NCBI RefSeq assembly: GCF_018866305.1
Contig: NZ_CP076456.1
Location: 2,418,001 to 2,482,000, forward strand
DNA length: 64,000 bases
Source of the DNA: Arthrobacter sunyaminii
GTDB lineage: Bacteria > Actinomycetota > Actinomycetes > Actinomycetales > Micrococcaceae
Direction of reading: 5' to 3'
Shown: positions 6,862 through 51,539 of the stretch, in pieces
Position numbering within the stretch: position 1 is the first letter of the stretch
Layout: every line of letters begins with the position of its first letter
Made by a program: the position numbers and the translations under genes
Notes under the pieces: model-generated
What the model saw: the letters and a program-made list of their open reading frames with translations, nothing else
Database searches by the model: none
What the model was told of the DNA's origin: nothing

Positions 6862-6975
6862 AAAGTGCTCCCCGTGTGACACATTCAGCCCAAAGACCGC
6901 CCCGCGCAGTCCCGCCAAGCGTACGACGGCGTTTCTGTTGTTCGCGTCACTGAGCGTGTGCGAGTCTTGACGCTT

Positions 6976-9009
6976 ATGAGTAACCCTTTCCTGCACACCA
7001 GCACCCTGCCCTACCAGCTCCCGCCGTTTGAGCAGATCACTCCCGATGATTTCCTCCCCGCCTTCAAGGCAGGCTTCGACGAAAACCTCATGGAAATCGA
7101 CGCCATAGCGGCAAACAGCGACACCCCGGATTTTGAGAACACCATCGCGGCAATGGAGCGCGCCGGTCAGACGCTGGCCCGCACTGCCTACGTCTTCTTC
7201 ACGTTCGCGGCGGCGGATGCAACCGAGCAAATCCAGGCGATCCAGCAGGAGGTCGGGCCGCAGCTGGCTGAGCACGAGGACAGCATCTATCTCAACAAGG
7301 CCCTCTTCGAACGGATCAGCGCCGTCTCCACCGACGGATTGGACGAGGAATCCGCCCGTTTGGTGTCCGAGTACCGCCGCAGCTTCATCCGCGCCGGAGC
7401 CCAGCTCGACGACGAAGGACAGGCGCGCATGCGAAAGCTGAATGCCCGGCTGTCAGTGCTGGGCACCGAATATGCGCAGAAACTGCTGAAGGACACCAAC
7501 GAATCGGCGCTGCTGGTGACTGACGCTGCTGAACTGGACGGCTTGTCCGACGACGATATCGCCTCAGCGGCAGCGGCCGCCGCTGAGGCAGGCTGGGCCG
7601 GGGCAAGCAAGGAAAAGTACCTGCTATCCCTGGTTCTGCCGACCTCGCAACCGGCGCTGGCTTCCCTCACCAACCGGGACACCCGCCGGCGCCTCCTCGA
7701 GGCTTCCCTGAACCGCGGTTTCCGGAACAACAGCGAGAATACGCTGGGGATTGCCGCCGAAATGGCGGCGCTGCGTGCCGAGCGGGCTGAGCTCCTGGGA
7801 TTCGCAAACCACGCCGAGTTCGCCACCGACAACCAGACGGCTCCGTCCCTGGAGGCCATCCACGCAATGCTCGGGAAGCTGGCCCCGCCCGCGGTCCGCA
7901 ATGCACAGGCCGAGGCGGAACTGCTGCGCGAGGCTGCGGCCCGGGACGGCGTCGAGGACCTGCAGGCCTGGGACTGGTCCTACTACTCCGAGCAGGTGCG
8001 GCGCGAAAAGTTCAGTGTGGACCGCGCGGCGCTGCGCCCCTACTTCGAGCTGGAACGGGTCCTGAAGGACGGCGTTTTCTACGCTGCCAACCGTCTGTAC
8101 GGCGTGACCTTCACCGAACGCCCGGACCTGGCCGGCTACCACCCGGACGTCCGGGTCTGGGAAGTCAAAAACGAGGACGGTTCAGGGCTGGGATTGTTCC
8201 TGGGTGACTATTACACCCGTGACACCAAGGCCGGCGGTGCGTGGATGAACTCGCTCGTGCACCAGTCCTCGCTGCTGGGAACCGCCTCCGTGGTCATCAA
8301 CAACCTCAACATCGCCAAGCCGGCCGCCGGAGAGCCAACCCTGCTCTCCTTCGACGAAGTGGTGACAGCTTTCCACGAATTTGGCCACGCCCTGCACGGC
8401 CTCTTCTCGGATGTCACCTACCCGCAGTTCTCCGGCACCGCCGTTCCCCGTGACTTCGTGGAGTATCCCTCCCAGGTAAACGAGATGTGGATGCTGTGGC
8501 CCGAGGTCGTGGCGAACTTTGCCAAGCATTACGCCACCGGTGAGCCGCTCCCCCAGGACGCCATCGACCGGATCGAGGCAGCCTCCACCTGGGGTGAAGG
8601 CTTCGGCACCACGGAGTACCTGGGCGCCACGCTGCTTGATCTTGCCTGGCACGAGCTGGCGCCGGGAGAAACAGTGCAGGACCCCGAAGCGTTCGAGGCT
8701 GAGGCCTTGGAACGTGCCGGCGTCGCCCTGGATTTGGTGCCCCCGCGTTACCGGTCCGGCTACTTCAAACACATTTTCGCCGGCGGCTACGCGGCCTCCT
8801 ACTACGCGTACATCTGGAGCGAAGTGCTGGACGCTGACACCGTGGAGTGGTTCAAGGAAAACGGCGGACTGACACGGGAGAACGGGGACCGGTTCCGCCG
8901 CGAACTGCTCGCCCGGGGCAACAGCATTGATCCGCTGCAGTCCTTCCGGAACTTCAGGGGCCGGGAAGCAGCCATTGAGCCGCTGCTGCACCGCCGCGGC
9001 CTGGCCTGA
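6976..9009 (+). CDS. M3 family metallopeptidase (oligopeptidase A/Dcp type)
   Basis: A 677-aa zinc oligopeptidase expected to hydrolyse short peptides in the cytoplasm. The active-site motif HEFGH is at 467-471, with family motifs DFVEYPSQVNEMW just downstream and YYAYIWSEVLDAD near the C-terminus. No signal peptide is seen. The first ATG consistent with the family N-terminus is at 6976; an upstream GTG at 6958 would only add MRVLTL. It is divergent from capA and seven bases upstream of a GNAT gene, probably its operon partner. Confidence 0.94.
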   Translation: MSNPFLHTSTLPYQLPPFEQITPDDFLPAFKAGFDENLMEIDAIAANSDTPDFENTIAAMERAGQTLARTAYVFFTFAAADATEQIQAIQQEVGPQLAEHEDSIYLNKALFERISAVSTDGLDEESARLVSEYRRSFIRAGAQLDDEGQARMRKLNARLSVLGTEYAQKLLKDTNESALLVTDAAELDGLSDDDIASAAAAAAEAGWAGASKEKYLLSLVLPTSQPALASLTNRDTRRRLLEASLNRGFRNNSENTLGIAAEMAALRAERAELLGFANHAEFATDNQTAPSLEAIHAMLGKLAPPAVRNAQAEAELLREAAARDGVEDLQAWDWSYYSEQVRREKFSVDRAALRPYFELERVLKDGVFYAANRLYGVTFTERPDLAGYHPDVRVWEVKNEDGSGLGLFLGDYYTRDTKAGGAWMNSLVHQSSLLGTASVVINNLNIAKPAAGEPTLLSFDEVVTAFHEFGHALHGLFSDVTYPQFSGTAVPRDFVEYPSQVNEMWMLWPEVVANFAKHYATGEPLPQDAIDRIEAASTWGEGFGTTEYLGATLLDLAWHELAPGETVQDPEAFEAEALERAGVALDLVPPRYRSGYFKHIFAGGYAASYYAYIWSEVLDADTVEWFKENGGLTRENGDRFRRELLARGNSIDPLQSFRNFRGREAAIEPLLHRRGLA

Positions 9010-9015
9010 TCCGCC

Positions 9016-9798
9016 ATGGTCACCATTGCCGCCTGCCAGGAGCTGCATCAGGACTGGCTGAGGAACCTCGCCGGCGTCACCCGCGGCCGTACCTTCTCCA
9101 CCCATGAGTCGGACTGGGCGTGGCTGCCGGCGAGGCGGCAGCTGGTGCTGCTGTACCCGCAGCGGATTTCACCGGCCGGCATTCGTCCCGGCCTGGCCGA
9201 GGGCATGCGGCTCGGTGCCCAAAGCGTTTCCGTATGGATGAACAACGCGGCAAGCTACGCTCCTTTGGAGGCGTTCGGTTTCCGCAGGGGTCCGCAGCCG
9301 CTGTGGATGAGCGCCCCGGTGTCTGCGCCGCAGCAGTACAGCGCGGCCGCGGCGGCCCTGGACCCGGATCCTCCTGAGGTCACCGGGCCCGACGCCGACG
9401 AGCTTGCTGCCGGCCGTACCCACCCGCGCACCGCCTGGCACCTGACCACACGGGGTGACGGGAAGCTGACGGGCCGTGCCTGGGTGTACGATCCAACCGC
9501 CGCCGACCAGCCGTCCAACACACCGGATCCAATCACCGGCAGGCCCGGCATTCCCGCGGCACCGGCACGGAAACCCCGTAAAGGATCCCTGGCCGGAATT
9601 TTCGGTTTGTCCGTTGGACCTTCCAGCCGGCGCAGCGGCTACGGTACGGCCCTGCTGAGCCGCGCGGCTGCAGTGGCGGCCGCTGCCGGCGCCGACCGGC
9701 TGGCCATTAACGCTGCACCGGGAGGCGCCGAACTGTGCGCGGCCCGGGGATTCGAACTGATCGGCCGCGGACAATACCTGTTCCTGGACCTGCGCTAA
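9016..9798 (+). CDS. GNAT-family N-acetyltransferase
   Basis: A 260-aa protein with a recognisable GNAT core in its C-terminal half: LAGIFGLSVGPSSRRSGYG, where R/Q-x-x-G-x-G/A is represented by RRSGYGTALL, then a helix and the terminal strand. The N-terminal half (VWMNNAASYAPLEAFGFRRG) resembles a second, degenerate GNAT unit, so it may be a tandem-domain enzyme. The substrate is unknown. The gene follows the M3 peptidase by six bases. Confidence 0.75.
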   Translation: MVTIAACQELHQDWLRNLAGVTRGRTFSTHESDWAWLPARRQLVLLYPQRISPAGIRPGLAEGMRLGAQSVSVWMNNAASYAPLEAFGFRRGPQPLWMSAPVSAPQQYSAAAAALDPDPPEVTGPDADELAAGRTHPRTAWHLTTRGDGKLTGRAWVYDPTAADQPSNTPDPITGRPGIPAAPARKPRKGSLAGIFGLSVGPSSRRSGYGTALLSRAAAVAAAAGADRLAINAAPGGAELCAARGFELIGRGQYLFLDLR

Positions 9799-9837
9799 GC
9801 GGGCTACCAGCCGGGAGCACCCGGCCGGAGCCCGCTT
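9797..9837. terminator. Bidirectional terminator-like hairpin
   Basis: AAGCGGGCT and AGCCCGCTT form a perfect 9-bp stem, with an inner GCCGG/CCGGC stem. It overlaps the GNAT stop codon and lies 20 bases from the stop of the convergent nuclease-STAND gene, as expected for a shared terminator. Confidence 0.75.
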
Positions 9838-9857
9838 CCACCTTCAGATGGTCTTCC

Positions 9858-12800
9858 TCAGCCAAAGATTGCGATCTCGATTATGGGTCCGTCCGGGTCG
9901 ATGATGTGTTGATCTGATCCCTCGTATGCGGAACCCACTAGCACGTTCCTTCGGTCAGCTGCGAACCCTGGCGAGACGATCACCTCCCGAAGACGCACTG
10001 TTGCAGGAACGCTGTTGGCGTCCTCCCACTCCATCCACCAGGTTTCCCTCATTGGTGACCAGGCAAGCACCGGGGATTCCCCGCCAATGAGGAGCCCCGC
10101 TCCATTCTCATCACACACCCACCGACCTGCTAAGCCAGAGGGGGGCATGTGTTCGACATGGGAGCTGTCCATCGCTGCAAAGACTCTTCGCTGCGGCCCT
10201 TGGGCAGTCCAAACACCACCAAGACCCCACGCACGGAGCGGAACAATGGGAGCTCCGGAGGCTGACTGCCGGAGACGAACGATCCGCTGGCACGCGGCGA
10301 TAGCCAAAAGCGAACCTTCGGGATGAGGAGCCAGGTGGGTGGGCGCTATCGCCTGCCCAGCCAGGGCTTCAACCCGGGCAGAACTCTCTTCGAGGTCATG
10401 ATCCAGCACACGGGTCACAACCCCGCACAACTCCAGCGTCACGGAATCGTCCGTCTGGTGGGGCCGCAAAGCATCAACGAGCGAATCCATCTGTCGGCAG
10501 AACTCAAGCGCTTCCATATCGAACATCTCTAGAACCCGGAAGGCGGCCGTCCGCCATGCGTTGAGAACCTCAACCCACCCAGCACTCAATCCGATGGCAC
10601 GTGCATCCGCCTGTACGAGCGCCTCACGGAACGCGTCGATTGATTCTTCGTAACGCTCCAGCGAGGCGAGGGCATCACCACGGAGGAAGAGCAGTTGGAG
10701 ATGGACCGCGGGGCTGGTCTCCACCCGCAACCGTTCCTCGATGCCACCCAGCGTTGCCGAGTCGTTGTTGCCGAGGGACCTCAATTGATCGTGAAACTCC
10801 CGGAAAGCCGAGCCGGCCTTGACATCGGGGAACGAGTCAACCAGGAACGAGATCCACCGGTCCGTGACCTCGACACTGAGCCAGCTATCGGAACCTGCGA
10901 GTAACTGGACGTTCTCGTAGACCTGAGTGGCGGCTTGTGCCACCGAATGGTGGGTGCCCAGGTCGATGGCGCACCTGCCCAGATAGTAAATGGCGGAATC
11001 AATGGTTTGGCGGATTTCACCGATGGGAGCGTTGTTTTGGATCTGGATTGACGAGATGTTGGAATGAATGATGGCCCGGAGCACGGGGGCATCTAGGTCC
11101 AATCGATCCATGGTCCCTAGCTCCTGACGATAGAGGGACTGCGCCGATTCCGGGTCACCTCGGTGTGCGAACATGTTTGCCATGTTCCCAATCAAGGTAA
11201 TGCCCTCGGGCGTGTATGCCCTGAAGAGTTCGGAGAAATCGATTGTCGTCAATGCCGAGGTGGCAAGCCGCTCAGCATTGTTGAATTTATAGGTGTCGAC
11301 TGCGGACCTGATTTGATCGCTCAGGACCAGCTGGAGCAGTCCGAGGACCCGTAATCGCGCTGTGTTGCTGTGGTGTCCCCGAACGACATCGAGGACGATG
11401 TCATTGGTACGTACCAGGTCGCCCCCTGCGGTTTCGGGGGCTTGGACGCGATGGACCAACGACGCCATCGACAACTGTCGGACCGCGATCTCCACGTGTT
11501 GCTCAGTTTCAGATCCCGGTTCTGCGTCCTCTTCGTCAGCGAGCTGATATCTACCAGCCATTGATTCTGCCGCAACGGTTACTCCGCCAGCGAGCTGAAG
11601 CGGGGCCGAGCGAGGCGGGAGGTAAGCGAGGGTCTCTATAAGGGCCATGGCGCGCAAAGGGAGGCGGTCATCCCGCGATGTGACCGTGTCCAGCGCTATA
11701 GAGATTGCCTGAAGCAGCGAAGGGTGCGAGCGATAATCTGGCGGGACGAGAGTTTCGTCGTCGATGATGTGTTCCTTGAGCCGGTCCAGGTAGGCGTCAG
11801 TCATTTCAAGGCCGCGCCCGCTGTCTGCAAGGAACCCGCACGCAAGCTCGATGGCCAGCGGCCAATTCCCCAAAGCGCCGCAGAGCCTCAGCGCGTCCCT
11901 CTCAGCGTCGGCATCGAGGCTGGCAAGTTCGAGGCGTTCGCACAAGAGGGCGATCGCCTGCGGGTCTGTCATGGGGTGGAGCCGGTTACGGTGCCACTGC
12001 CCCCAGCCTGCCGAGTTGGTCGAGGTCGCGAGCAGGTCGATCGCTCCGACAACGGGGAGCCACGGAGCAACCGTCCGGTCGTCAGGTGCGTTGTCGAAAA
12101 CGAGCAGCCACGTCGCAGGTACTCTCGAGATCGTGAACTTGAATTGTTCAGCAACGATATCCGTCGAGGCATCCCTGGCGTCGATTCCGACGCAAGCCGA
12201 GACCGCCTCACGGATCGCCTCCGTACTATGTGCATCAATCCACAGGATCCGGTCGTAGTAGTGGCGCGCAGTATCCAAATACAGCCTCGCTACTGTCGAT
12301 TTGCCGATGCCTGACAGCCCCGTAAGGGCGACCCTTCGCACGGCTCCAACGGGCGGGCCACTGAACGTCTTGGTGATGCCCGCAAGTGCCTCGGTTCTGC
12401 CAATTGTCCGCGTTACGGGGACCGGGCCAAGGGGAACTCCCCAATCGATCTCTCCTGCGGCACCCGCTAGGACGAGGTTCGGCACGCCCAACAACCGCTC
12501 TAACCCGGCGCGGTCGAGACGGCGACCCTTCCGGCGGCTGGACAGGTGCAGGATTTGCGAAGTCAGGTATCCCACCAACACCTCCGCTGTGTGGCGACCC
12601 GTGCCATCACCGCGAAGTCTGCGCTGGTGTTGTGCCTTTCCCTCGATCTGGGAACGGAGAACGTCGAGATCAACGGGTTCACACAGAACAACGCACCGTG
12701 CAAGGCGGGAAACGTTTATGCCCGCGTCGATGGCTTCTGTGAGCCACCCCGGGGAGAGATGCGGACCGATGATCTCGATTACGCCGGGTGACGTCGCTGT

Positions 12801-13178
12801 CGACGGATCGAGCGACACAAGAGCGGAACGTAATGCCTCGCCTGCTGTCGTGAGACGCCTGTTCGTTCGGATGAGATAACGCTGTGAATCGTGTTCGATC
12901 AGTTGCAGAAGGATTCCGGCAATCTCGGGTACACCCATACGTTTTCCTTGTGGGCCGTCCACAGAAGACTTTGCTTGGACGGAGAGCAGCCTGATGCCGT
13001 CTGGATCAGTGATTGAGTAGTCAACAACGTCGGAAACGTGGTCTTCACTCTCCAAAACGAAATCCTCGGCAGGATGTTTCGCCATGTGGTCAAGGACATC
13101 CTCGACGGCGACCAGGTACTGATAGCCCAGTCCCGCAGCCGTGCCAACTCCACCTGAGGCATTTGAGATCTGAGACAT
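9858..13178 (-). CDS. Putative anti-phage NLR-like protein: Cap4-like nuclease + STAND/NB-ARC ATPase + helical repeats
   Basis: A 1,106-aa multidomain protein. Residues 1-125 resemble the Cap4/DUF4297 nuclease family: GLGYQYLVAVEDVL, then acidic ESEDHVSD (43-50) and QAK (68-70), the E/D...Q-x-K pattern of restriction-like nucleases. A P-loop ATPase follows, with Walker A GLSGIGKST (287-295, K293), Walker B LLVFDN (358-363), sensor-like ATSTNSAGW (384-392) and the NB-ARC GLPL-like GNWPLAIELA (437-446). About 600 helical residues consistent with TPR-like repeats come next, then a beta-rich C-terminus with several Trp. This is the effector-ATPase-sensor layout of Avs/STAND defence proteins. It is a single gene between hairpin terminators, interrupts the pdxT-pdxS region, and has somewhat lower GC than its neighbours. 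The activity and trigger are inferred, not shown. The start has no Shine-Dalgarno sequence. Confidence 0.75.
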   Translation of the reverse strand: MSQISNASGGVGTAAGLGYQYLVAVEDVLDHMAKHPAEDFVLESEDHVSDVVDYSITDPDGIRLLSVQAKSSVDGPQGKRMGVPEIAGILLQLIEHDSQRYLIRTNRRLTTAGEALRSALVSLDPSTATSPGVIEIIGPHLSPGWLTEAIDAGINVSRLARCVVLCEPVDLDVLRSQIEGKAQHQRRLRGDGTGRHTAEVLVGYLTSQILHLSSRRKGRRLDRAGLERLLGVPNLVLAGAAGEIDWGVPLGPVPVTRTIGRTEALAGITKTFSGPPVGAVRRVALTGLSGIGKSTVARLYLDTARHYYDRILWIDAHSTEAIREAVSACVGIDARDASTDIVAEQFKFTISRVPATWLLVFDNAPDDRTVAPWLPVVGAIDLLATSTNSAGWGQWHRNRLHPMTDPQAIALLCERLELASLDADAERDALRLCGALGNWPLAIELACGFLADSGRGLEMTDAYLDRLKEHIIDDETLVPPDYRSHPSLLQAISIALDTVTSRDDRLPLRAMALIETLAYLPPRSAPLQLAGGVTVAAESMAGRYQLADEEDAEPGSETEQHVEIAVRQLSMASLVHRVQAPETAGGDLVRTNDIVLDVVRGHHSNTARLRVLGLLQLVLSDQIRSAVDTYKFNNAERLATSALTTIDFSELFRAYTPEGITLIGNMANMFAHRGDPESAQSLYRQELGTMDRLDLDAPVLRAIIHSNISSIQIQNNAPIGEIRQTIDSAIYYLGRCAIDLGTHHSVAQAATQVYENVQLLAGSDSWLSVEVTDRWISFLVDSFPDVKAGSAFREFHDQLRSLGNNDSATLGGIEERLRVETSPAVHLQLLFLRGDALASLERYEESIDAFREALVQADARAIGLSAGWVEVLNAWRTAAFRVLEMFDMEALEFCRQMDSLVDALRPHQTDDSVTLELCGVVTRVLDHDLEESSARVEALAGQAIAPTHLAPHPEGSLLAIAACQRIVRLRQSASGAPIVPLRAWGLGGVWTAQGPQRRVFAAMDSSHVEHMPPSGLAGRWVCDENGAGLLIGGESPVLAWSPMRETWWMEWEDANSVPATVRLREVIVSPGFAADRRNVLVGSAYEGSDQHIIDPDGPIIEIAIFG

Positions 13179-13203
13179 TTAGACATTTAACCGACACTGC
13201 CAG

Positions 13204-13240
13204 GGGACGGCAATAGACCGGCTTCCTGGAATGCCGTCCC
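13204..13240. terminator. Hairpin between pdxS and the nuclease-STAND gene
   Basis: GGGACGGCA and TGCCGTCCC form a perfect 9-bp stem around a 19-base loop, 25 bases upstream of the STAND gene start. On the plus strand it is followed by AGTTTT. It probably isolates the STAND gene from pdxS transcription. Confidence 0.55.
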
Positions 13241-13254
13241 AGTTTTGCCGGAGA

Positions 13255-13297
13255 AGATCAGGCTGGGTCAAGGGCCGCCCCGTTCCCAGCCTGATCT
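13255..13297 (-). terminator. pdxS terminator hairpin
   Basis: AGATCAGGCTGGG and CCCAGCCTGATCT form a perfect 13-bp stem with a 17-base loop, 24 bases after the pdxS stop codon. On the minus strand it is followed by TCTCC, with no long U-tract. Confidence 0.7.
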
Positions 13298-13321
13298 CTG
13301 CGGAAGAACCAGTCCCTGAAG

Positions 13322-14263
13322 CTACCAGCCGCGTTCAGCCAGGCGGTGCGGCTGCGGGATCTCGTCCACGTTGATGCCCACCATGGCCTCACCGAGTCCG
13401 CGCGAGGCCTTGGCGACCTCATCGGCGTCGTCGAAGAAGGTGGTGGCCTTGACGATGGCTGCCGCACGCTGTGCGGGGTTGCCGGACTTGAAGATGCCCG
13501 AACCCACAAACACGCCGTCCGCGCCCAGCTGCATCATCATGGCGGCATCAGCGGGAGTGGCTATGCCGCCGGCAGTAAACAGCACCACCGGAAGCTTCCC
13601 GGCCGCGGCCACCTCTTTGACGAGCTCATAGGGGGCCTGCAGTTCCTTGGCCGCGACGTACAGTTCGTCCTCGGGCAGCGAGGACAGCCGGGCAATCTCG
13701 GAACGGATGGTGCGCATGTGCATGGTGGCGTTGGAAACGTCCCCCGTGCCGGCCTCGCCCTTGGAGCGGATCATGGCCGCGCCCTCGTTGATCCGCCGCA
13801 GGGCTTCGCCCAGGTTCGTGGCGCCGCAAACAAAGGGAACCGTGAATTTCCATTTGTCGATGTGGTTGGCGTAATCGGCCGGGGTCAGGACCTCGGATTC
13901 GTCGATGTAGTCGACACCGAGGGACTGCAGGACCTGGGCTTCCACAAAGTGCCCGATGCGGGCCTTGGCCATGACGGGAATGGAGACGGTGTCGATGATG
14001 CTGTCGATCATGTCCGGATCGCTCATCCGGGAGACACCGCCCTGCGCGCGGATATCGGCAGGCACGCGCTCCAGCGCCATGACGGCCACGGCGCCCGCGT
14101 CTTCGGCAATGCGTGCCTGTTCGGCGGTGACCACATCCATGATCACACCGCCTTTGAGCATTTCGGCGATGCCGCGCTTGACCCGGCTGCTGCCGGTGAC
14201 CGGAGACAGGGAACCGGACGCGGAAACAGGCACGGGCATGCCCTGGGGCTCTGGAATGTTCAT
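13322..14263 (-). CDS. pdxS: Pyridoxal 5'-phosphate synthase lyase subunit PdxS
   Basis: A 313-aa TIM-barrel protein that makes PLP from ribose 5-phosphate, glyceraldehyde 3-phosphate and ammonia supplied by PdxT. The Schiff-base lysine is K100 in [10 protein letters not shown], the catalytic Asp is in GGVIMDV, and the phosphate loop [15 protein letters not shown] is intact. The ATG at 14263 follows AAGGTGAG at good spacing; a longer frame adds only unrelated residues. The sequence is highly conserved and of normal length. Confidence 0.97.
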
Positions 14264-14343
14264 GGAACTTCTCACCTTCGCGAAAAACCAATGCAGCGAT
14301 CGCTGCTGCCCCAAGCCTAGGCTTTCAACGTCCCGTTAAGCAG

Positions 14344-14380
14344 GCGGCCCGCCGCCGGATTGCTTCCGGTGACGGGCCGC
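14344..14380 (-). terminator. Terminator-like hairpin after pgsA
   Basis: GCGGCCCG and CGGGCCGC form an 8-bp stem with an inner CCGG/CCGG pairing, 36 bases downstream of the pgsA stop on the minus strand and upstream of pdxS. It suggests pdxS is transcribed separately. Confidence 0.6.
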
Positions 14381-14416
14381 TGGGAATTGCCTGTATTGCT
14401 GAGGACGATGCTGTGG

Positions 14417-15031
14417 CTATCCGGCCTTGGGCAGCGCCTGCCGCCGGACCGCCAGCATCCGCTGGGCAATGGTGACGCAGCTGGCTGCGCAGAGGAGCAC
14501 CAGGACCACCAGCAGCAGGATTTCTGGAACGCCCAGACCCACCAGGCCGGTGGCCACCAGCAGGGAGACTAGTCGTTCCGCGCGCTCGGCAATGCCCACG
14601 TTGGCGTTGAATCCCAGTGACTCCGCTTTGGCCCGGATGTAGGAAACCAGCATGCCCAGCACCAGGGCAATGATGGCGGCGATGCCGATGGCGTCGTTGC
14701 TGCCGCCGGTGAAGAACCAGATGCTTACCCCGGCAAACAGGGCGCCGTCGGCGAAGCGGTCCAGGGTTGAGTCCAGGAATCCGCCCCATTTTCCGGTCCG
14801 TGCCTGCTGGCGGGCCATGATGCCGTCAATGACGTCGGAAAAGATGAACGCGGTAATGAACAGGGTTCCCCAGAACAACTGTCCCAGCGGGTAGAACACC
14901 AGCCCGCCGATCATCACACCCAACGTTCCGGCGATGGTGACCATGTCCGGTGTGATCCCGCGGCGCAGCAGCCAGCTGGCCAGCGGGGTGAAAACGGCAG
15001 TGAAGAATCCCCGCGCGTATTTATTGAGCAC
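14417..15031 (-). CDS. pgsA: Phosphatidylinositol phosphate synthase (CDP-alcohol phosphatidyltransferase)
   Basis: A 204-aa membrane enzyme with the CDP-alcohol phosphotransferase signature D-G-x2-A-R-x8-G-x3-D-x3-D, seen as DGIMARQQARTG followed by GGFLDSTLDR (about 68-90), and six hydrophobic segments. Its place next to a HIT protein and thrS matches mycobacterial pgsA1, which makes phosphatidylinositol phosphate from CDP-diacylglycerol and inositol 1-phosphate. The mycobacterial neighbours patA and pimA are not present next to it. It starts three bases after the HIT stop, so the two are probably co-translated. Confidence 0.9.
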   Translation of the reverse strand: MLNKYARGFFTAVFTPLASWLLRRGITPDMVTIAGTLGVMIGGLVFYPLGQLFWGTLFITAFIFSDVIDGIMARQQARTGKWGGFLDSTLDRFADGALFAGVSIWFFTGGSNDAIGIAAIIALVLGMLVSYIRAKAESLGFNANVGIAERAERLVSLLVATGLVGLGVPEILLLVVLVLLCAASCVTIAQRMLAVRRQALPKAG

Positions 15032-15034
15032 GGG

Positions 15035-15646
15035 TCAGTCCTCGCTGTCCTGGCCGGAGCCGCTGGCCGGCCAGGCGTCGGCCACCTGCTGCCGGACGTC
15101 GCCCAGCGTCTGGGTGATGGCCTTAGTCTGCGCGATGATCGGCAGGAAGTTTCCGTCCCCGCCCCAGCGCGGCACAATGTGCTGGTGCAGGTGGGCGGCG
15201 ATACCCGCTCCCCCGGTGACGCCCTGGTTCATGCCCAGGTTGAAGCCGCTGGGGTTGGAGACTTTCCGCAGCACGCGCATGGCGGTCTGGGTCAGCGACG
15301 CAATCTCGGCCGTTTCCCGCTCATCAATGTCCGTGTAATCCGGCACGTGCCGGTACGGGCAGACGAGCAGGTGCCCGGCGTTGTACGGAAACAGGTTGAG
15401 GATCACAAAGGCGTACTTGCCGCGGTGGACAATCAGTGATTCCTCGTCGGAGCGGCCAGGCGCGGCACAGAACGGGCAGTTGTGCTCCGAGGAGACCTGT
15501 TCCTGCCCGCCCTTGATGTACGCCAGGCGGTGCGGCGTCCACAGGCGTGCAAATGAATCCGGCACGCCCGCAAGCTCGAATGAGTCGGTGACTGCGGCAT
15601 CCCCGGGATAGGGACTGCCGCCGTCGTCCTGGCTGCTGTTTTCCAT
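15035..15646 (-). CDS. HIT domain protein (Ap4A phosphorylase/hydrolase-like)
   Basis: A 203-aa histidine-triad protein, nucleotide-binding and probably acting on dinucleoside polyphosphates; the mycobacterial homolog at this position (between thrS and pgsA) is an Ap4A phosphorylase. The triad HLHQHIVPRW is present, along with the upstream Cys pair of HNCPFCAAPG, which may bind zinc. The ATG at 15646 follows AGGAG with normal spacing. It is 22 bases downstream of thrS. Threonyl-tRNA synthetase is a source of Ap4A, which fits the linkage. Confidence 0.9.
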   Translation of the reverse strand: MENSSQDDGGSPYPGDAAVTDSFELAGVPDSFARLWTPHRLAYIKGGQEQVSSEHNCPFCAAPGRSDEESLIVHRGKYAFVILNLFPYNAGHLLVCPYRHVPDYTDIDERETAEIASLTQTAMRVLRKVSNPSGFNLGMNQGVTGGAGIAAHLHQHIVPRWGGDGNFLPIIAQTKAITQTLGDVRQQVADAWPASGSGQDSED

Positions 15647-15668
15647 CTGCACTCCTGCCGCCGCCGTC

Positions 15669-17681
15669 CTACTTGTCCCGGTTCCGTACGGCTTCGACAA
15701 TCCGCTTGACGGCCTCTTCCACGGGCACGCCGTTGTCCTGGCTGCCGTCGCGGAAGCGGAAGGACACTGCTCCGGCATCGGCATCGTCGCCGCCGGCAAT
15801 CAGGACAAACGGAATCTTGTCCTTGGAGGCGGTGCGGATCTTCTTCGGGAAGCGGTCGGTTCCGGTGTCCACCTGGGCGCGGATGCCGGCGGCCTTGAGC
15901 TTGTCGACGACGTCGAACATGTAGTCGTTGAACGCCTCGGCCACGGGGATGCCAACCACCTGAACCGGTGCCAGCCAGGCCGGGAACGCGCCGGCGTAGT
16001 GCTCGGTCAGCACTGCCATGAAGCGTTCCACGGAACCGAACAGGGCGCGGTGGATCATGACCGGACGCTGGCGGGTGCCGTCGGCGGCCTGGTACTCGAG
16101 CTCGAAGCGTTCGGGCAGGTTGAAGTCCAGCTGGATGGTGGACATCTGCCAGGTGCGGCCAATGGCGTCGCGGGCCTGGACGGAGATCTTGGGGCCGTAG
16201 AACGCGGCTCCGCCCGGATCCGGGACCAGGTCCAGGCCGGATTCTTCGGCCACCTCGGCCAGGGTGCGGGTGGCTTCCTCCCACACGTCGTCGGAGCCGA
16301 CGTACTTCTCCGGATCCTTGGTGGACAGTTCCAGGTAGAAGTCATCCAGGCCGTAGTCCTTGAGCAGGTCCAGGACGAAGTTCAGCGTAGTGGTCAGCTC
16401 GTCCTTCATCTGCTCGCGGGTGCAGTAGATGTGGGCGTCGTCCTGGGTCATGCCGCGCACGCGCGTCAGGCCGTGGATCACGCCGGACTTTTCGTAGCGG
16501 TACACGGAACCGAATTCGAACAGCCGCAGCGGCAGCTCGCGGTAGGACCGTCCGCGGGAGCGGAAGATCAGGTTGTGCATGGGGCAGTTCATCGGCTTTA
16601 GGTAGTAGTCCTGGCCGGGCTTGGTGACCTCGCCGGTTTCCGGGTCGGTGACCTCGTCCACGTGCATGGGAGGGAACATGCCGTCGCGGTACCAGTCCAG
16701 GTGGCCGGAGACCTCGTACAGGTGGCCCTTGGTGATGTGCGGGGTGTAGACGAACTCGTAGCCGGCTTCGGTGTGCCGCTGGCGGGAGTAGTCCTCCATG
16801 GCCTTGCGGATGATGCCGCCCTTGGGGTGGAACACCGGCAGGCCGGAGCCCAGTTCATCCGGGAAGGAGAACAGGTCCAGTTCGGTGCCCAGCTTGCGGT
16901 GGTCGCGGCGCTCGGCCTCGGCCAGGCGTTCCTGGTACGCCTTCAGGGCGTCCTTGGTGGGCCAGGCGGTGCCGTAGATGCGCTGCAGCTGCTGGTTCTT
17001 CTGGTCGCCGAGCCAGTAGGCGGCGGAGGAACGGGTCAGCGCAAAGGCGTTGGAGATCAGCTTGGTGTTCGGCAGGTGCGGGCCGCGGCACAGGTCGCAC
17101 CAGATGACGTCGCCGGACTTGCGGTCCACGTTGTCGTAGATGGTGATTTCACCGGCGCCGACCTCGATGTTCGCGCCCTCGCCGGCTTCGTCTGCGCCGT
17201 CCTTTTTGCCCAGCAGTTCCAGCTTGTACGGCTCGTTGGCCATGGCTTCGCGGGCTTCTTCTTCACTCACCACGCGGCGGACAATTTTTTGGTTCGAGTT
17301 GATGATCTTCTGCATCATCTTCTCGAGGGTCTTCAGGTCCTCGGGGGTGAACGGCTCGGCAACGTCGAAGTCGAAGTAGAAACCGTCCTTGATGTACGGG
17401 CCAATGCCGAGCTTGGCGTCCGGACGCAGCTGCTGCACGGCCTGGGCCATGACATGGGCGGTGGAGTGGCGCAGCACGTTCAGTCCGTCTTCGGAGTCGA
17501 TGGTCACGGCTTCAACGGCGGAGCCCGGGACAAGCTCCGTGTCCAGATCCTTCAGGACACCGTCCACGCGCATGACGACGACGTCGCGGCGGTCGAAGAA
17601 CAGCTGTGCACCTGTGGTGCCAGTATCCACCGTGGTCTCCTCGTCGTTGACGATGAGGGTGAACTTCTCTGGCACTGACAC
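15669..17681 (-). CDS. thrS: Threonine--tRNA ligase
   Basis: A 670-aa class II aminoacyl-tRNA synthetase. It has an N-terminal TGS domain (about 1-65), the editing/SAD domain with [12 protein letters not shown] and CRGPHLPNT, the catalytic core with motif 2 and the zinc ligand Cys in [10 protein letters not shown], and a C-terminal anticodon-binding domain ending near AVRNRDK. The length is normal. It leads the thrS-HIT-pgsA run on the minus strand. No T-box leader was recognised upstream. Confidence 0.97.
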
Positions 17682-21749: not shown

Positions 21750-23399
21750 CTAAACTTCCTCCCCCGCTTCCGTCCGGACCGCGGTGGACAGCGGGGTCTC
21801 CCGGATAAACAGGCACAGCACCAGGGCTACTGCGACAATGGGCACACTGAGCAGGAAGATCGGCGGCAGCGCGTGCCCAAAGGCCGCGCCGATGAAATCC
21901 TGCACCGGCGCCGGCAGACCCCGCAGCGTCGTCGGGCTCAGGGAATTGATGTCCCCGCCCACCGCTGCCCCCGCCCCCTGCGGCGCCGCGGCAATCTCAT
22001 TGCCCAGGCGGTGGATGAAGATGGAGCCGAACAGCGCAATACCAAAAGAGGCACCGATCTGCCGGAAATAGTTCGCCGCGGAAATTGCAGCCCCCATGTC
22101 CCTGCCGGGGACGCTGTTCTGCACAATCAGCACCAGGTTCTGCATCAGCATTCCAATGCCCAGGCCCATCACCAGCATCCCGAGCGCCGTGAAGCTGTAC
22201 GGCGTGGTGTCGGAAATCCGGGACAGCAGCACCAGGCCCGCAATGATCACCGCGCAGCCCAGGATCGGATAGATCTTGTACTTTCCCGTGCGGGAAATCA
22301 GCTGGCCGGTGCCGATGGAGGTGAGCAGCAGCCCGCCCATCATCGGCAGCATCATCAGTCCGGATTCGGTGGCAGTGGCCCGGTTGACCATCTGCAGGAA
22401 GGTGGGCAGGTAGGAAATGGTGGAGAACATGGCGATGCCCACGGAGATGCCCACCAGCACGGGCAGCAGGAAGTTACGGTTGCGGAACAGGCCCAGCGGC
22501 ATGATCGGCTCCCGGGACTTCAGCTCCACCCGCACAAATGCCGCACCCGCAGCCAGGGTCAATGCGGCCAGAGCCAGGATCTGCGGACTTGACCAGGCAT
22601 AGGTGGTGCCCGCCCACGTGGTGAGCATGATCAGGGCGGCGCTCGCAACGGCCAGCAAGGCAGCGCCGGCGTAGTCCAGCCGCGGGCGGGCTCCCTGGGG
22701 TTTGGCCAGCTGCAGGGAGGTGATGACGACGGCGAGCGCCACCGCTCCGATGGGCAGGTTGATGTAGAAGACCCACCGCCAGGACCAGGCATCGGTGATC
22801 CAGCCGCCCAGCAGCGGTCCGCACACGGAGGCAAGTCCGAAGGCTGCTCCGATCAGTCCCATGTACTTGCCGCGCTCGCGCGGAGAGACGAGGTCTCCCA
22901 GGATGGCCTGCGCGCCGATCATCAGTCCGCCGCCGCCGAGGCCCTGCAGTGCACGGAAGCCGATCAGCTGACCCATGTCCTGCGCCAGCCCGGACAGCAT
23001 GGAGCCGACCAGGAACACCACAATGGCGAAAATGAAGATGCTCTTGCGGCCAAACAGATCGCCGAGTTTTCCGTAGATCGGCAGGCCGATGGTTGCTGCC
23101 AGGATGTAGGCAGTGACCACCCAGGACAGGTGCTCGAGCCCGTTGAGGTCCCCCACGATGGTGGGCAGCGCGGTCGCCACGATGGTCTGGTCCAGGGCTG
23201 CCAGCAGCACGGACAGCACCAGCCCGGTGAAGACCAGGGGCAGGTTCCGTTTGGGCATCGCCGCCGGCGCGGCCTCCTCCCGGTGCCGCCCGTGCTTTCG
23301 CGTACCCTGCAGCTGCCTACCCGGCGCAGGCCCCGGATTGCCGGGAACCAATGCTGCCGGGCTCGCGGCGATCCGTGGTGAAAGTGCTTTGTGGGACAT
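21750..23399 (-). CDS. DHA2-family MFS drug efflux transporter (copy 1)
   Basis: A 549-aa, 14-TM major facilitator of the EmrB/QacA (DHA2) family, a proton-driven multidrug exporter. Seen are the motif LDQTIVATALPTIVGDL in TM1, motif A GKLGDLFGRK in the TM2-3 loop, and a motif C-like GPLLGGWITD. About 45 mostly polar N-terminal residues precede TM1. It is very similar along its whole length to the neighbouring upstream gene, indicating tandem duplication. No linked TetR/MarR regulator is visible. Confidence 0.92.
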   Translation of the reverse strand: MSHKALSPRIAASPAALVPGNPGPAPGRQLQGTRKHGRHREEAAPAAMPKRNLPLVFTGLVLSVLLAALDQTIVATALPTIVGDLNGLEHLSWVVTAYILAATIGLPIYGKLGDLFGRKSIFIFAIVVFLVGSMLSGLAQDMGQLIGFRALQGLGGGGLMIGAQAILGDLVSPRERGKYMGLIGAAFGLASVCGPLLGGWITDAWSWRWVFYINLPIGAVALAVVITSLQLAKPQGARPRLDYAGAALLAVASAALIMLTTWAGTTYAWSSPQILALAALTLAAGAAFVRVELKSREPIMPLGLFRNRNFLLPVLVGISVGIAMFSTISYLPTFLQMVNRATATESGLMMLPMMGGLLLTSIGTGQLISRTGKYKIYPILGCAVIIAGLVLLSRISDTTPYSFTALGMLVMGLGIGMLMQNLVLIVQNSVPGRDMGAAISAANYFRQIGASFGIALFGSIFIHRLGNEIAAAPQGAGAAVGGDINSLSPTTLRGLPAPVQDFIGAAFGHALPPIFLLSVPIVAVALVLCLFIRETPLSTAVRTEAGEEV

Positions 23400-23443: not shown

Positions 23444-25165
23444 TTACCTGGCGGTTGGTTCCTGCTCCGCATCTCCGAGGTGCACCCGCGCGGTCTCGGA
23501 CAGCGGAATCTGTTTGATGAACAGGGTCATGATCAGGCCGGCGCCCAACGCCGGAATGCCGAGCAGGAAAATTGGCGGCAGGGCATCCCCGAAGGCCTGG
23601 GCAATAAAGTCCCGCACCGGCGCGGGCAGCATTTTCAGTTCGGACGGACTGATCGAATTCACTCCGTTGCGGAGCACACCCGCAGCCTGGGCGGGGGCGT
23701 CCCCCACCTGGTCATTCAGCCGCTTGATAAAGAAGGAGCCGAACACCGCGATCCCCAGCGAACCTCCCATCTGCCGGAAATAGTTGGCGGAGGATACGCC
23801 GGTGCCCATGTTCTGCGCGGGGACGCTGTTCTGCACGATCAGCACCAGGTTCTGCATCAGTGCTCCGATGCCCAGGCCCAGCACAAACATGCCCAGCGCC
23901 GTGAACCAGTAGGGCGTGGTGTTGGAAATCCGGGAGAGCAGCAGCAGCCCTATGATCATCACGGCCGCGCCGAGGATGGGATAGATCTTGTACTTTCCGG
24001 TACGGGAAATCAGCTGCCCGGTGCCGATCGAGGTAATCAGCACGCCGGCGGTCATGGGCAGCATCATCAGTCCGGACATGGTGGCTGAGGCGCCGTTGAC
24101 CATCTGCAGGAAGGTGGGCAGGTAGGAAATGCTGCCGAACATGGCCAGCCCCACGGACAGGCCCACCAGGGTGCAGACGAGGAAATTCCGGTTCCGGAAG
24201 AGCTGCAGCGGCAGAATCGGCTCAGCGGTACGCAGTTCCACGGGGATGAAGACTGCAATGCCGGCGACGGCGGCTGCTCCCAGCCAGAGGATGGTCGGGG
24301 ACGTCCAGGCATAGGTGGTTCCGCCCCAGCTGGTCAGCATCACCAGCGCGGCGCTGATGACGGCCAGAAGGACGGCGCCCACGTAGTCCAGTGGAGGGCG
24401 GGGTCCGGACCTGGTCGGCAGGTGCAGGGAGGTGATGATCACGGCCAGTGCGATCAGGCCCAGCGGAAGGTTGATGTAGAAAATCCACCGCCAGGACCAG
24501 TACTCGGTTAAATAGCCTCCCAGCAGCGGGCCGCTCACCGATGCCAGCCCGAAGGCGGCGCCGATCAGCCCCATGTACCGGCCGCGGTCGCGGGCGGAGA
24601 CAATGTCACCGATGATGGCCTGTGCGCCGATGATCAGCCCGCCGCCGCCCACCCCCTGGATGGCCCGGTAGGTGATCAGCTCGGTCATGCTGTGCGCCTG
24701 CCCGGACAGGGCGGAGCCGGCCAGGAACACCGCAATGGCAAAGACGAAGATGTTCTTGCGTCCCAGCAGGTCGCCGAGTTTGCCGTAGATCGGCAGTCCG
24801 ATGGTGGAGGTGAGCAGATAGGCCGTAATCACCCAGGACAGGTGGTCCAGGCCCTGGAGGTCTCCCACAATGGTGGGCAGCGCCGTGGACACAATGGTCT
24901 GGTCCAGGGCCGAAATCAGCACGGCCAGGATCAACCCGGCGAAGACCAGCCCTGTTTGCCGCCGCGCGTGCGGTGCCGGAGCACCGTCGCCGGGGCCGGC
25001 GGGCGGTCCGCCGCGCCGGCCCCGGGGAGTTGCGCTGGCGGGTGCGTTTGGCGCAGCGGGTGGGGAGGCCAGCAGATGGGACGATGCCGGTGAACCCAGA
25101 TCGGTGGCCGCGCGCGATACGGGGTGGGTGGCTTCTGCGCCGTGGGCGGTAAATTTGGCGGCCAT
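23444..25165 (-). CDS. DHA2-family MFS drug efflux transporter (copy 2)
   Basis: A 573-aa, 14-TM DHA2 transporter and paralog of the gene 44 bases downstream. Both share LDQTIV(A/S)TALPTIVGDL, GLPIYGKLGDL, GRYMGLIGAAFGLAS-type loops and GQLISRTGKYKIYPILG. The ATG at 25165 follows AAGGAG at five bases; the longer frame is unlikely. The N-terminal extension is about 80 residues, rich in Ala/Pro/Gly and different from copy 1. The substrate is unknown; related pumps export dyes, antiseptics and antibiotics. Confidence 0.92.
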   Translation of the reverse strand: MAAKFTAHGAEATHPVSRAATDLGSPASSHLLASPPAAPNAPASATPRGRRGGPPAGPGDGAPAPHARRQTGLVFAGLILAVLISALDQTIVSTALPTIVGDLQGLDHLSWVITAYLLTSTIGLPIYGKLGDLLGRKNIFVFAIAVFLAGSALSGQAHSMTELITYRAIQGVGGGGLIIGAQAIIGDIVSARDRGRYMGLIGAAFGLASVSGPLLGGYLTEYWSWRWIFYINLPLGLIALAVIITSLHLPTRSGPRPPLDYVGAVLLAVISAALVMLTSWGGTTYAWTSPTILWLGAAAVAGIAVFIPVELRTAEPILPLQLFRNRNFLVCTLVGLSVGLAMFGSISYLPTFLQMVNGASATMSGLMMLPMTAGVLITSIGTGQLISRTGKYKIYPILGAAVMIIGLLLLSRISNTTPYWFTALGMFVLGLGIGALMQNLVLIVQNSVPAQNMGTGVSSANYFRQMGGSLGIAVFGSFFIKRLNDQVGDAPAQAAGVLRNGVNSISPSELKMLPAPVRDFIAQAFGDALPPIFLLGIPALGAGLIMTLFIKQIPLSETARVHLGDAEQEPTAR

Positions 25166-36005: not shown

Positions 36006-36038
36006 GCTGCGGCGTCATAGCCTTGTAACCCCACGGCA

Positions 36039-36080
36039 AAGGCCCCGTCTCTCTGCTAATTGGCAGAGAGACGGGGCCTT
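36039..36080. terminator. Strong bidirectional terminator
   Basis: GGCCCCGTCTCTCTGC and GCAGAGAGACGGGGCC form a perfect 16-bp stem with a 6-base loop, flanked by AAA on the left and TT on the right. It lies between the convergent APC permease and MHS transporter genes. Confidence 0.92.
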
Positions 36081-36112
36081 CCGGGGATTGGAAGTGAACC
36101 AATCGTTGAGGC

Positions 36113-37387
36113 TTAGGGCCGGCCGTAACGAGTTCTCACGAAGTACAAGCCAACGAGGGAAATCACCGCGATGGCCATGTAGTACAACCCCGGTGCGCTC
36201 AACGACCCGGTGACACTCAACAGCCAGGTCAGCACCAGCGGTGCAATACCCCCCAGCAACGTCACACCAACGTTATACGTGACTGCCAGCCCGGTTCCCC
36301 GAATCGCTGCCGGGAACATCGAGGAGAGCAAGGCAGGAAGCGGTCCAAAGTAGAACGCCATGATCACGCCGAGTATGCCGATAACCATGACAAGTGTTGG
36401 CACCGTTGGATTGGTGACCAAGAGCTGGAAAAGCGGCCAAGCCAGGAGCAGCGCACCGATTGCCGCATAAGTCATCACCTTTGCGGGTCCCACCCGGTCC
36501 GCGAGGTGACCAACAAACGGCACGCCCACGAGGGTAACAATGCCGGCAACCACGCCGCCGAGGTATGCCGCAGTTGCCGGGATTTCCAGGTTTGTCACGG
36601 CAAATGTGGGCATGTAGAGAATCATGTAAACGGAGATTGTCGCCACACCAATGACAGCTGAACCGGCAAGCAGGCGCCCATAATGGTTCACGATCAAGGT
36701 CTTGACCGGAGAAGATTCCTTTTCACTGTGAATGAAATCCTCGGTCTCCGAAAGCCTGGCGCGGATGTAGAGTCCCACCGGACCAATAAGCAGGCCGACG
36801 AAAAACGGCACACGCCAGCCCCAGCTGTTCAGCGCCTCTTCGGAGAGTCCTTCAGTCAGCGCGAAGCCAAAGGCTGAGGCCAGCAGCATTGAGGCGCCCT
36901 GGCTTGCCACCTGCCAAGACGAATAAAACGCTTTCTTGTGCGGTGCCGTCTCGATCAGAAATGCAGTTGCAGTGCCAAATTCGCCGCCTGCGGAGAAACC
37001 CTGGATGAGGCGTGAGAGCAGGATAATTACCCCGCCCCACATGCCAACCTGGGCGTAGGTGGGCGCCACTGCCATGATCAACGTGCCGACCATCATCAGC
37101 AGCAGGGTCAGTGAGAGTGCACTCTTGCGCCCCTTGCGGTCCGCGTAACTACCGAGCACCAGGCCGCCCAGCGGGCGGATCAGGTAGGAAATCGCAAAAG
37201 TGGCAAAGGTGAGAATCAGTGCGAACACCGGGTCCGAATCCGGGAAGAAGTTCTTGGCAATGACGGTTGCAAAGGTTGCGTAGACGATGATGTCGAACCA
37301 TTCAAGGGCGGCACCAATCGAGCTGCTGATCACCGCCTTCTTAGCATCTTTGAATTGCTTCGGAGTTATCGTTGACGCTGCGCTCAT
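36113..37387 (-). CDS. MFS transporter, metabolite:H+ symporter (MHS) family
   Basis: A 424-aa, 12-TM major facilitator. SSSIGAALEWFDIIVYATFA in TM1, RPLGGLVLGSYADRKGRKSAL as motif A and RLIQGFSAGGEFGTA in TM4-5 are hallmarks of the MHS group (citrate, proline/betaine and related importers). The ATG at 37387 overlaps the stop of the upstream M20 deacetylase by ATGA, so both are one operon. It probably imports the substrate or product of that enzyme. Confidence 0.9.
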   Translation of the reverse strand: MSAASTITPKQFKDAKKAVISSSIGAALEWFDIIVYATFATVIAKNFFPDSDPVFALILTFATFAISYLIRPLGGLVLGSYADRKGRKSALSLTLLLMMVGTLIMAVAPTYAQVGMWGGVIILLSRLIQGFSAGGEFGTATAFLIETAPHKKAFYSSWQVASQGASMLLASAFGFALTEGLSEEALNSWGWRVPFFVGLLIGPVGLYIRARLSETEDFIHSEKESSPVKTLIVNHYGRLLAGSAVIGVATISVYMILYMPTFAVTNLEIPATAAYLGGVVAGIVTLVGVPFVGHLADRVGPAKVMTYAAIGALLLAWPLFQLLVTNPTVPTLVMVIGILGVIMAFYFGPLPALLSSMFPAAIRGTGLAVTYNVGVTLLGGIAPLVLTWLLSVTGSLSAPGLYYMAIAVISLVGLYFVRTRYGRP

Positions 37388-38598
37388 GAGAGGCTCCCGG
37401 TGGGCGTGGGCTGAGGATTGGCAGACTGTGCGGTGAGTGCTTCCACAAGGTTGTCGATGAATGATTCGCACGCGGCAATCTGCTCCAGTGCGATGAATTC
37501 GTCAGGTGCATGAGCCTGGGCAATGTCGCCGGGTCCGCAAACTACCGTGGGAATGCCCGCATTCGAGAACAGTCCCGCCTCGGTACCGTAGGTCACCTTA
37601 TCCGGGCTTGGCGTTCCACCCAGTTCGGATGCCAGGGAGACTATGGAGTCCTCCTCGGGAGTATCAAGCCCCGGTGTCTGGGCCAGCACCGTGAAATCAA
37701 CGCGGGCTTTTGGGTTCCGCTCCTTCATGAGCGCCTCAATGCGCAGCGCTTCAGCACGGAATTCTTCAATGAGTTCCACCGGGTCATCATCCGCAATGGA
37801 ACGGAATTCAAAGTGAAGCGTGCATGCTGCCGGTATGGTGTTTACCGCGATGCCGCCCTGAATTTGGTTCACCGTAGCAGTGGTGTAGGGGACAATGAAG
37901 GCTTCATCAGACGCACCGGCACCGGCGAACTTCTCAGCCTTGGCATCAACAAAGGCCGCAAAGTCGGCGGCGGCAGCAATCGCATTGACTCCCTGCGGGG
38001 TCAGTGAGGAATGTGCTGCAATACCGTGAAAATCCACCTTGATGACATTGACCGATTTGTGCCCCCGCACCACGCGCATCGAGGTTGGCTCCCCCACAAT
38101 GGCACCGCGCGGCTTCAGACCCTCGGCCGTGATGGCCTCTACCAGGCCAACCGCACCGATGCAGCCAACTTCCTCATCGTAGGAGAAGGCCAGATGGATG
38201 GGTTCGCTGAGTTCGGCAGCAACGATGGAGTCGAGTTTGGCCATCACCACGCCAACAAAGGATTTCATGTCACAGGCGCCGCGGGCATAAAGCTTGCCAT
38301 CACGTATTTCAGGGGTGAAAGGGTCAGAGCCCCAGTCCTGTCCGTCGACGGGCACAACATCGGTGTGTCCGGAAAGCACAATGCCACCGGTCCGTGTGCC
38401 GTCGCCCGCAGGAATGGTGGCGAGCAAATTTGCCTTCTGACCGGTTGCATCGTGAACCAGCTTGGATTCGATGCCCAGGGCTTTGAGGCGCTCACCCACA
38501 TACTCGATCAGCGGAAGGTTGCTGTCCCGGCTGACTGTCTCAAAATTGATCAGCCTGGTAATTTCCTCAAGCGTTGCATCGCTCGGTGTTGGTGACAT
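37384..38598 (-). CDS. M20 family deacetylase, ArgE/acetylornithine deacetylase-like
   Basis: A 404-aa di-zinc hydrolase. Motifs are LSGHTDVVPVDGQDW, ARGACDMKSFV (bridging Asp), YDEEVGCIGA (catalytic Glu and ligand), IVGEPTSMRVVRGHKS and the dimerisation His in HGIAAHSS. It resembles ArgE, but linkage to an MHS importer instead of arginine genes suggests a catabolic deacylase for an N-acyl amino acid. An inverted repeat upstream may be an operator. Confidence 0.88.
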   Translation of the reverse strand: MSPTPSDATLEEITRLINFETVSRDSNLPLIEYVGERLKALGIESKLVHDATGQKANLLATIPAGDGTRTGGIVLSGHTDVVPVDGQDWGSDPFTPEIRDGKLYARGACDMKSFVGVVMAKLDSIVAAELSEPIHLAFSYDEEVGCIGAVGLVEAITAEGLKPRGAIVGEPTSMRVVRGHKSVNVIKVDFHGIAAHSSLTPQGVNAIAAAADFAAFVDAKAEKFAGAGASDEAFIVPYTTATVNQIQGGIAVNTIPAACTLHFEFRSIADDDPVELIEEFRAEALRIEALMKERNPKARVDFTVLAQTPGLDTPEEDSIVSLASELGGTPSPDKVTYGTEAGLFSNAGIPTVVCGPGDIAQAHAPDEFIALEQIAACESFIDNLVEALTAQSANPQPTPTGSLS

Positions 38599-38652
38599 GT
38601 TTTACTCCCGGTCTTCATCGAGACAACTGCTGAGGTCCCGCATTATCAGCGG

Positions 38653-38676
38653 ACTGACAGTCGAGAGTCTGTCACT
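38653..38676. promoter_or_regulatory. Candidate operator upstream of the M20-MHS operon
   Basis: ACTGACAG and CTGTCACT form an 8-bp inverted repeat with one mismatch and an 8-base spacer, 55 bases upstream of the deacetylase start. Size and position fit a GntR- or TetR-like site; no regulator gene is adjacent. Confidence 0.3.
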
Positions 38677-38779
38677 GTGAGCCATCCTTGTCACACTAAT
38701 TCGGGCTCGGCCGTCATATTCTCATTGCGCGGCACGCGACTTCACTTATTCTGTCTAACAGTTCATGTGAGGAAGGTTG

Positions 38780-38956
38780 GTGACCAGGCACGTAGTTTTG
38801 GTCGGTCTGCCTTGGATTCCTATCTTTCTCGGGGTTGTCACCTTGGTTATCGGAATCACTGGACTCGTGGTCACCACGATGCAGCCGGCGTCCGAGGTAA
38901 GGATCGTTAGCAGAATCAGCCGGCGTTTGAAGAAGCGTGATAGGTCCGAATCTTAG
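38780..38956 (+). pseudogene. 58-aa truncated paralog of the 849-aa membrane protein
   Basis: A GTG three bases after AGGAAGG opens a 58-codon frame. Residues 10-43 contain LPWIPIFLG, IGITGLVVTT and QPASEVRIV, matching residues of the N-terminal TM segment of the protein at 43726-46275 at about 26 of 34 positions. After this it diverges to a basic tail (RRLKKRDRSES) and stops. It is either a decayed 5' fragment of a second copy or a new small one-TM protein, and the ribosome-binding site is intact. Confidence 0.7.
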
Positions 38957-38984
38957 TAACCATCGCAGTAGTCAACGCAACAGC

Positions 38985-39167
38985 CTAAAGAATCGCAGGT
39001 AGACCTCGGCATGCCGTTCTTCCGAGAACGTCCCACTCCGCGTCGGGAGAGAGCAACGATTGGAGATCTGTTGCGTCGATGCTTGTGAGGGCAACAGCGA
39101 AGCGGCGGGTGATCTCGTGGCGAGGTGCGTTGCCGCAGTTGGGTTCGCTGTGTACTCGGATTGTCAT
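38985..39167 (-). pseudogene. N-terminal stub of an NTF2/SnoaL-like protein
   Basis: A 60-aa frame whose middle, EITRRFAVALTSIDATDLQ followed by SLLSPDAEWDVLGR, resembles the first helix and strand of SnoaL-like NTF2-fold proteins. These are normally 110-150 aa, and here the frame stops at once after LPAIL. It is probably truncated. The similarity is short, so the assignment is tentative. Confidence 0.35.
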
Positions 39168-39220
39168 GGGACGAATCTTGGTTTTCCGGGTGGGCGGGTG
39201 TCAACCAGCTGCCCACCCCT

Positions 39221-43631: not shown

Positions 43632-43725
43632 GGCCTACACGCTACAGGCCGCCCGCAAACCTTGGTTTCGGGCCGGGATATCAACTGTGCTCGTCCGGAC
43701 GCAGAGGATCGGGCTTAGTTCCGTT

Positions 43726-46275: not shown

Positions 46276-46573
46276 TGACTCAATCCGGGTACTTGGGAGC
46301 GAACCTGCCAATCCTAACGACAATTCTGTATTTGCCCGGACCGGGATTACCATGCCAGCTCTTTTTGGAAATCTCAGTACCGGTGCCACATCTTCTTTTC
46401 AATGCTCGACCGCTCCGGTGAGGGGAAGCTGCAGAAACACAATTGTGTTCAGTGCCGGTTTTGAAGGGCAGCTGAAGAATTGCATTTCAACGGATTGAAT
46501 GCCCGGGTGCCGCTCGGAAGCTACGATGCTACAACTGCCGTCGGGAACTATCTGAGGCGGACGACCCGGACTC
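46276..46573. other. 298-base spacer without a supported gene
   Basis: The spacer lies upstream of the 849-aa protein gene and downstream of the methyltransferase gene. It is less GC-rich than its flanks, with runs such as CAATTGTGTTCAGTG, and probably holds the promoter of the membrane protein. No hairpin, repeat or short ORF with a ribosome-binding site was found. Confidence 0.4.
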
Positions 46574-47700: not shown

Positions 47701-47877
47701 GCTTTCCTCCCGACGAGGCCTGCCGCTCTGACCTTGCTGTCCGCACATTACGTTGTGTCCGCCGCAGGGTCCACGCAGCCGACCTTGCATGCTTCCGCGA
47801 TCACTCGAAAGTAGTCGTTCTAGATAAACACCGAGGGATCGGCTAACGGGCCAACTTTCCTCTGGAAGACTCTGAGG

Positions 47878-48441: not shown

Positions 48442-48450
48442 GGGGTCCCC

Positions 48451-48981: not shown

Positions 48982-49060
48982 CGCGTCATTGTGCCATTCT
49001 CGGCTAACCCTCACCAAGTGACTGCGCTCCAGGGAACCGGTCACGGAGAAGAATGTGGAC

Positions 49061-50100: not shown

Positions 50101-50111
50101 CCTCAGTCTCT

Positions 50112-51519: not shown

Positions 51520-51539
51520 CACCATAAGTTGGAGATGAC

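Follow-up and report, generated by a model that had tools for sequence, protein, structure and literature searches.

What does a single large gene do between pdxS and a GNAT gene in Arthrobacter sunyaminii? The gene lies on contig NZ_CP076456.1, in a stretch of 64,000 nucleotides (nt; positions 2,418,001 to 2,482,000) that we refer to as the window. It occupies window positions 9858-13178 on the minus strand, exactly where a preliminary description of this DNA had placed it, and encodes 1106 amino acids from an ATG start without an internal stop. That description proposed a new anti-phage NLR combining an effector, an ATPase and helical repeats. All three parts were found by structure comparison and, with varying strength, by profile search, and the modelled protein has the STAND/NLR layout of effector, switch and repeat sensor in one chain. 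We consider it quite likely that the gene encodes a one-gene, anti-phage (anti-mobile-element) immune receptor of this type; its domains and its sporadic distribution support this reading, and the anti-phage activity itself is a prediction.

The N-terminal domain (residues ~5-240; 12459-13166, minus strand) is a predicted PD-(D/E)xK nuclease. A nuclease fold had been expected here, and structural comparison predicted one, of LmuA/HamA type, rather than none. Profile support was weak, with a PADLOC match of the window protein (P0001) to LmuA over residues 11-94 (E 0.0059). D53, Q68 and K70 are kept even where overall identity among relatives falls to ~20%, and the fold together with this D-x(n)-QxK motif places the domain in the Cap4/LmuA type, with DNA cleavage as its predicted activity. 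ESEDHVSD, the acidic stretch singled out previously, spans residues 43-50. The acid that the family keeps, however, is a slightly later one, D53 (VVD53Y), accompanied by Q68 and K70. Acids upstream of D53 vary across the family, as they might if the domain were catalytically dead and served DNA binding or assembly, with a regulatory output. We regard this as very improbable, because the conservation of D53, Q68 and K70 argues for selection on catalysis.

The nuclease is followed by an NB-ARC/AP-ATPase switch (residues ~255-610; 11349-12416, minus strand). Its STAND fold, with Walker A and B motifs followed by helical domains, was found by both structure and profile, and its best structural matches are Apaf-1 and plant NB-ARC. 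The motifs claimed for the protein were all located (GLSGIGKS from residue 287, LLVFDN from 358, WPLA at 439-442 and, in the nuclease, QAK from 68), and the nucleotide-binding motif is intact (Walker A K293, Walker B D362). A TPR-like helical solenoid, supported by profile and structure, covers residues ~611-930 (10389-11348, minus strand). Pfam matches of P0001 were all below cut-off (AAA_16, 2e-4; single TPRs; NB-ARC, E 0.26). The top NCBIfam match was FxSxx_TPR (FxsT, NF040586; residues 259-685, E 1.4e-35). According to the available excerpt of PMC7159879, AP-ATPase-TPR proteins are coupled to FxSxx peptide systems, and a lantibiotic dehydratase gene lies ~4 kb from one relative (locus L062); both would fit an FxsT-kind STAND regulator acting with peptide-maturation genes, or a developmental switch, rather than an immune protein. 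The window protein does share switch and TPRs with these actinobacterial proteins. However, its score of 123 bits is far under the 300-bit family cut-off, its N-terminal effector is different, and the neighbours identified by Pfam are pdxS (SOR_SNZ), the GNAT gene, an M3 peptidase and a CDP-alcohol phosphatidyltransferase, with no peptide-maturation gene among them. In addition, the match to plasmid genes annotated fxsT begins at residue 204 or 259 and leaves out the nuclease. We give the FxsT-like explanation very little credence.

The C-terminal domain (residues 935-1106; 9861-10376, minus strand) was rightly described as Trp-rich: the last 176 residues hold 7 tryptophans, versus 12 in the other 930. 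It is an alpha/beta domain whose fold had no significant match in structure comparison. This domain is the most divergent part of the family and an exchangeable one, which makes it a plausible candidate for the ligand sensor.

How widespread is such a protein? The family is rare in whole genomes. The Pfam, NCBIfam and PADLOC libraries have no model for it as a family. Searching 5.8 billion proteins (7996 candidates scored) returned 15 matches at E<=1e-3, the window's own included; a profile search gave 43, namely those 15 and 28 others covering just 6-22% of the query. The alignments of eight relatives (P0003-P0010) span 92-100% of the length, with P0004 beginning within the nuclease domain. 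In P0011-P0015 the C-terminal domain is different or missing, and P0016 matches over 28%. Named relatives belong to Flexivirga, Plantactinospora, Streptomyces (two), Catenulispora, Streptosporangium and a Mycolicibacterium plasmid. Of 394 genomes of the class, four (G000 among them) had near-full-length matches, which in the other three cover profile positions 1 to ~940 of 1096; matches of any extent at E<=1e-20 occurred in 112, and among the matches listed nearly all fell in the switch/TPR part. The order sample yielded two of 396 genomes at E<=1e-60 (G000 plus a second with a partial match), and the phylum sample one of 396 (G000 alone).

The locus itself points to gain of the gene from elsewhere. 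As had been claimed, the gene stands alone in a core region and has lower GC content than its neighbours: 0.599, versus 0.647 for pdxS, 0.644 for the M3 peptidase gene and 0.630 for the window. At third codon positions (GC3) the value is 0.663, versus 0.822, 0.813 and, for thrS, 0.885 (thrS and a HIT neighbour were named by reading translations, not by search). In a close relative, G002, blastn matches to window 1-23266 leave just one gap longer than 300 nt, at 9800-13322. No match to the gene was found in any of 28 congeners. Their insertion sites were readable in 15, defined by a pdxS match plus ~1.5 kb of DNA past the pdxS stop (of the other 13, eight had no pdxS match and five only matches of 26-27 nt); at all 15 the gene was missing and the other flank (window 7615-9835) matched. 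In the two closest congener loci (L035, L036) only tens of bases separate the flanks. Homologs are thus not conserved in all relatives at this site. Because of the G002 gap, the 15 empty sites and the low GC3, we infer that the gene was gained horizontally as a single-gene insertion, a sporadic distribution of the kind used to recognise defence genes.

The inserted segment (9803-13331, absent from close congeners) carries an exact 11-nt direct repeat, GCTACCAGCCG, at its edges (9803-9813 and 13321-13331), the right copy lying over the pdxS stop codon; none of 2000 random 50-mer pairs from the window shared 11 nt, but the left copy lies in a hairpin. Apart from the gene, the segment comprises just ~55 bases at one edge and 143 at the other, and therefore brings along neither an integrase nor a transposase. 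Hairpins said to bound the gene were predicted on both sides, at ~9797-9837 (-33.1 kcal/mol) and ~13255-13298, and no terminator with a T-run scored within 9700-13500. The interval from the gene to pdxS (window 13179-13321), which close relatives lack, contains two hairpins; they may be either the pdxS terminator or part of the insert. In congener G009 (locus L045, 181-1500), ~1.3 kb between the M3 peptidase and pdxS genes had no match in window 6901-16000; the gene is lacking there and the junction is not bare, possibly reflecting other cargo at the same site.

We read the flanks of eight relatives (L058-L064 and L069; the partial relative L068 was left out), scanning selected neighbours only, 20 proteins with PADLOC and 10 with Pfam. 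Known defence genes lie near three of the eight. The L061 gene has a CBASS pair (SAVED-HNH effector and cyclase) on one side and, on the other, Septu PtuAB accompanied by type I restriction-modification genes. The L062 gene, near a contig end, is ~0.4 kb from a CBASS E1-E2 (Cap2-like) gene (L062 14741-15427) directly upstream on the same strand, and the L069 gene is ~1.8 kb from genes that the record annotates as Pycsar effector and cyclases. At L058 and L059 the matches of neighbours were limited to candidate classes of PADLOC (PDC-S03, PDC-S14), and the single neighbour scanned at L064 had no match. A radical-SAM protein at L058 matched pVip (1.4e-10) and was not counted as a defence system. 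RAMA-domain proteins occur near two family members (L059 13686-15056; L061 14981-16105, the latter being Septu PtuB). No recurring partner gene was noticed beside the family gene in lists of neighbouring open reading frames, which were not compared systematically.

Integrase-like genes lie close to two further relatives. At L060 there is a phage-type integrase (E 9.5e-23) together with a RepSA replication gene of pSAM2 type, and at L063 an integrase match (E 7.1e-5) below the Pfam cut-off. These could indicate that the same switch-nuclease machine naturally targets plasmids or conjugative elements instead of phages, as could the structural nearness of the nuclease to LmuA, which acts with the SMC-like LmuB in Lamassu, a system that restricts plasmids as well as phages (available excerpt of PMC10586767). 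However, the Apaf-1/NLR-type switch and TPR arm resemble protein-sensing receptors, not SMC-based DNA sensing, and the Avs3 and Avs4 structures, to judge from their titles, include phage terminase and portal, which is protein sensing. We consider plasmids or conjugative elements an unlikely natural target; the protein is probably a phage sensor.

The comparison with Avs/STAND systems made in the preliminary description was correct for the architecture. However, PADLOC, which holds Avs models, returned only LmuA and VakA at E<=1, and 'Avs' (AVAST) is therefore an analogy of architecture, not of sequence membership. Avs is a single long protein with an N-terminal effector, a central STAND NTPase and C-terminal repeats (available excerpt of PMC12931631). 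Avs3 (8dgc_A) was among the structural matches, over residues 5-964, but its chain has 2028 residues versus 1106 here, and the window protein differs in its unmatched C-terminal domain and in a switch closest to Apaf-1 and plant NB-ARC. HamA (AbpA) of Hachiman pairs with a helicase, and its profile match to the window protein was not significant (E 0.12). In contrast to Apaf-1, CED-4 and the NRC resistosomes, the window protein is bacterial, has a nuclease effector, and carries TPRs in place of the WD40 or LRR repeats of Apaf-1/NLR-type proteins. In Lamassu, LmuA has LmuB as its partner; the window protein instead carries its nuclease in one chain with the NB-ARC and TPR parts, and the adjacent genes, pdxS and GNAT, include no SMC gene such as LmuB (the check for LmuB covered these neighbours and not the remainder of the genome). 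The excerpt of PMC10586767 also places the Cap4 endonuclease domain in CBASS and in many Lamassu systems. We noticed no paper on a nuclease-NB-ARC-TPR architecture among the titles and abstract beginnings of the open-licence literature.

Several observations weigh against an immune receptor. The LmuA match is weak taken alone, three of nine N-terminal pieces had no LmuA match, Pfam recognised a nuclease in one of the nine (Mrr_cat, 0.0011), and the HamA match fell short. The Pfam NB-ARC match is below cut-off, the strongest NCBIfam match is to FxsT of a peptide system, and sequence profiles give no Avs, no full FxsT and no adjoining Lamassu partner. The gene is alone among housekeeping genes, outside any defence island, and five of the eight relatives have no known system among the genes scanned, which were selected and lack a random control. 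Supporting the receptor, from sequence or model, are the conserved nuclease motif and fold, the intact nucleotide-binding motif, the domain order, the horizontal gain and the defence setting of some relatives.

STAND proteins have a tripartite architecture and switch on and off (PMC12931631, available excerpt), assembling when their C-terminal repeats bind a signal (PMC7159879, likewise). By analogy with known STAND proteins, the NB-ARC switch would keep the protein closed in a resting cell. A phage protein would be bound by the C-terminal half, through the TPR arm and/or the C-terminal domain, after which the switch would exchange nucleotide and oligomerise. The oligomer would bring the LmuA-like nuclease domains together and turn on DNA cleavage, which would stop phage growth, probably at the infected cell's cost through cell arrest.

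Elsewhere in the window, stretches 36006-39210, 43650-46567, 47852-50136 and 50693-61292 had no blastn match in the compared G002 region, and thus variability extends to the right part of the window. Two other stretches, 22005-23237 and 23717-24949, have a second G002 match each, at ~77%, and look like diverged tandem copies.

The immune-receptor reading would join two lines of immunity usually described apart, the LmuA/HamA/Cap4-type nuclease of Lamassu, Hachiman and CBASS and the Apaf-1/NLR switch. More tentatively, we may be looking at a rare actinobacterial NLR family that combines conserved nuclease and switch with exchangeable C-terminal sensors, the one here, of a fold unmatched in solved structures, being a direct receptor of a phage protein and a bacterial parallel to the sensor domains integrated into plant NLRs; this is possible rather than likely. 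Since clades share the effector and switch but differ in the C-terminal domain, the family would offer a tractable one-gene system for how a bacterial NLR acquires new specificity. Standing alone between housekeeping genes, the gene is a defence candidate of the kind that island-based scans can miss.
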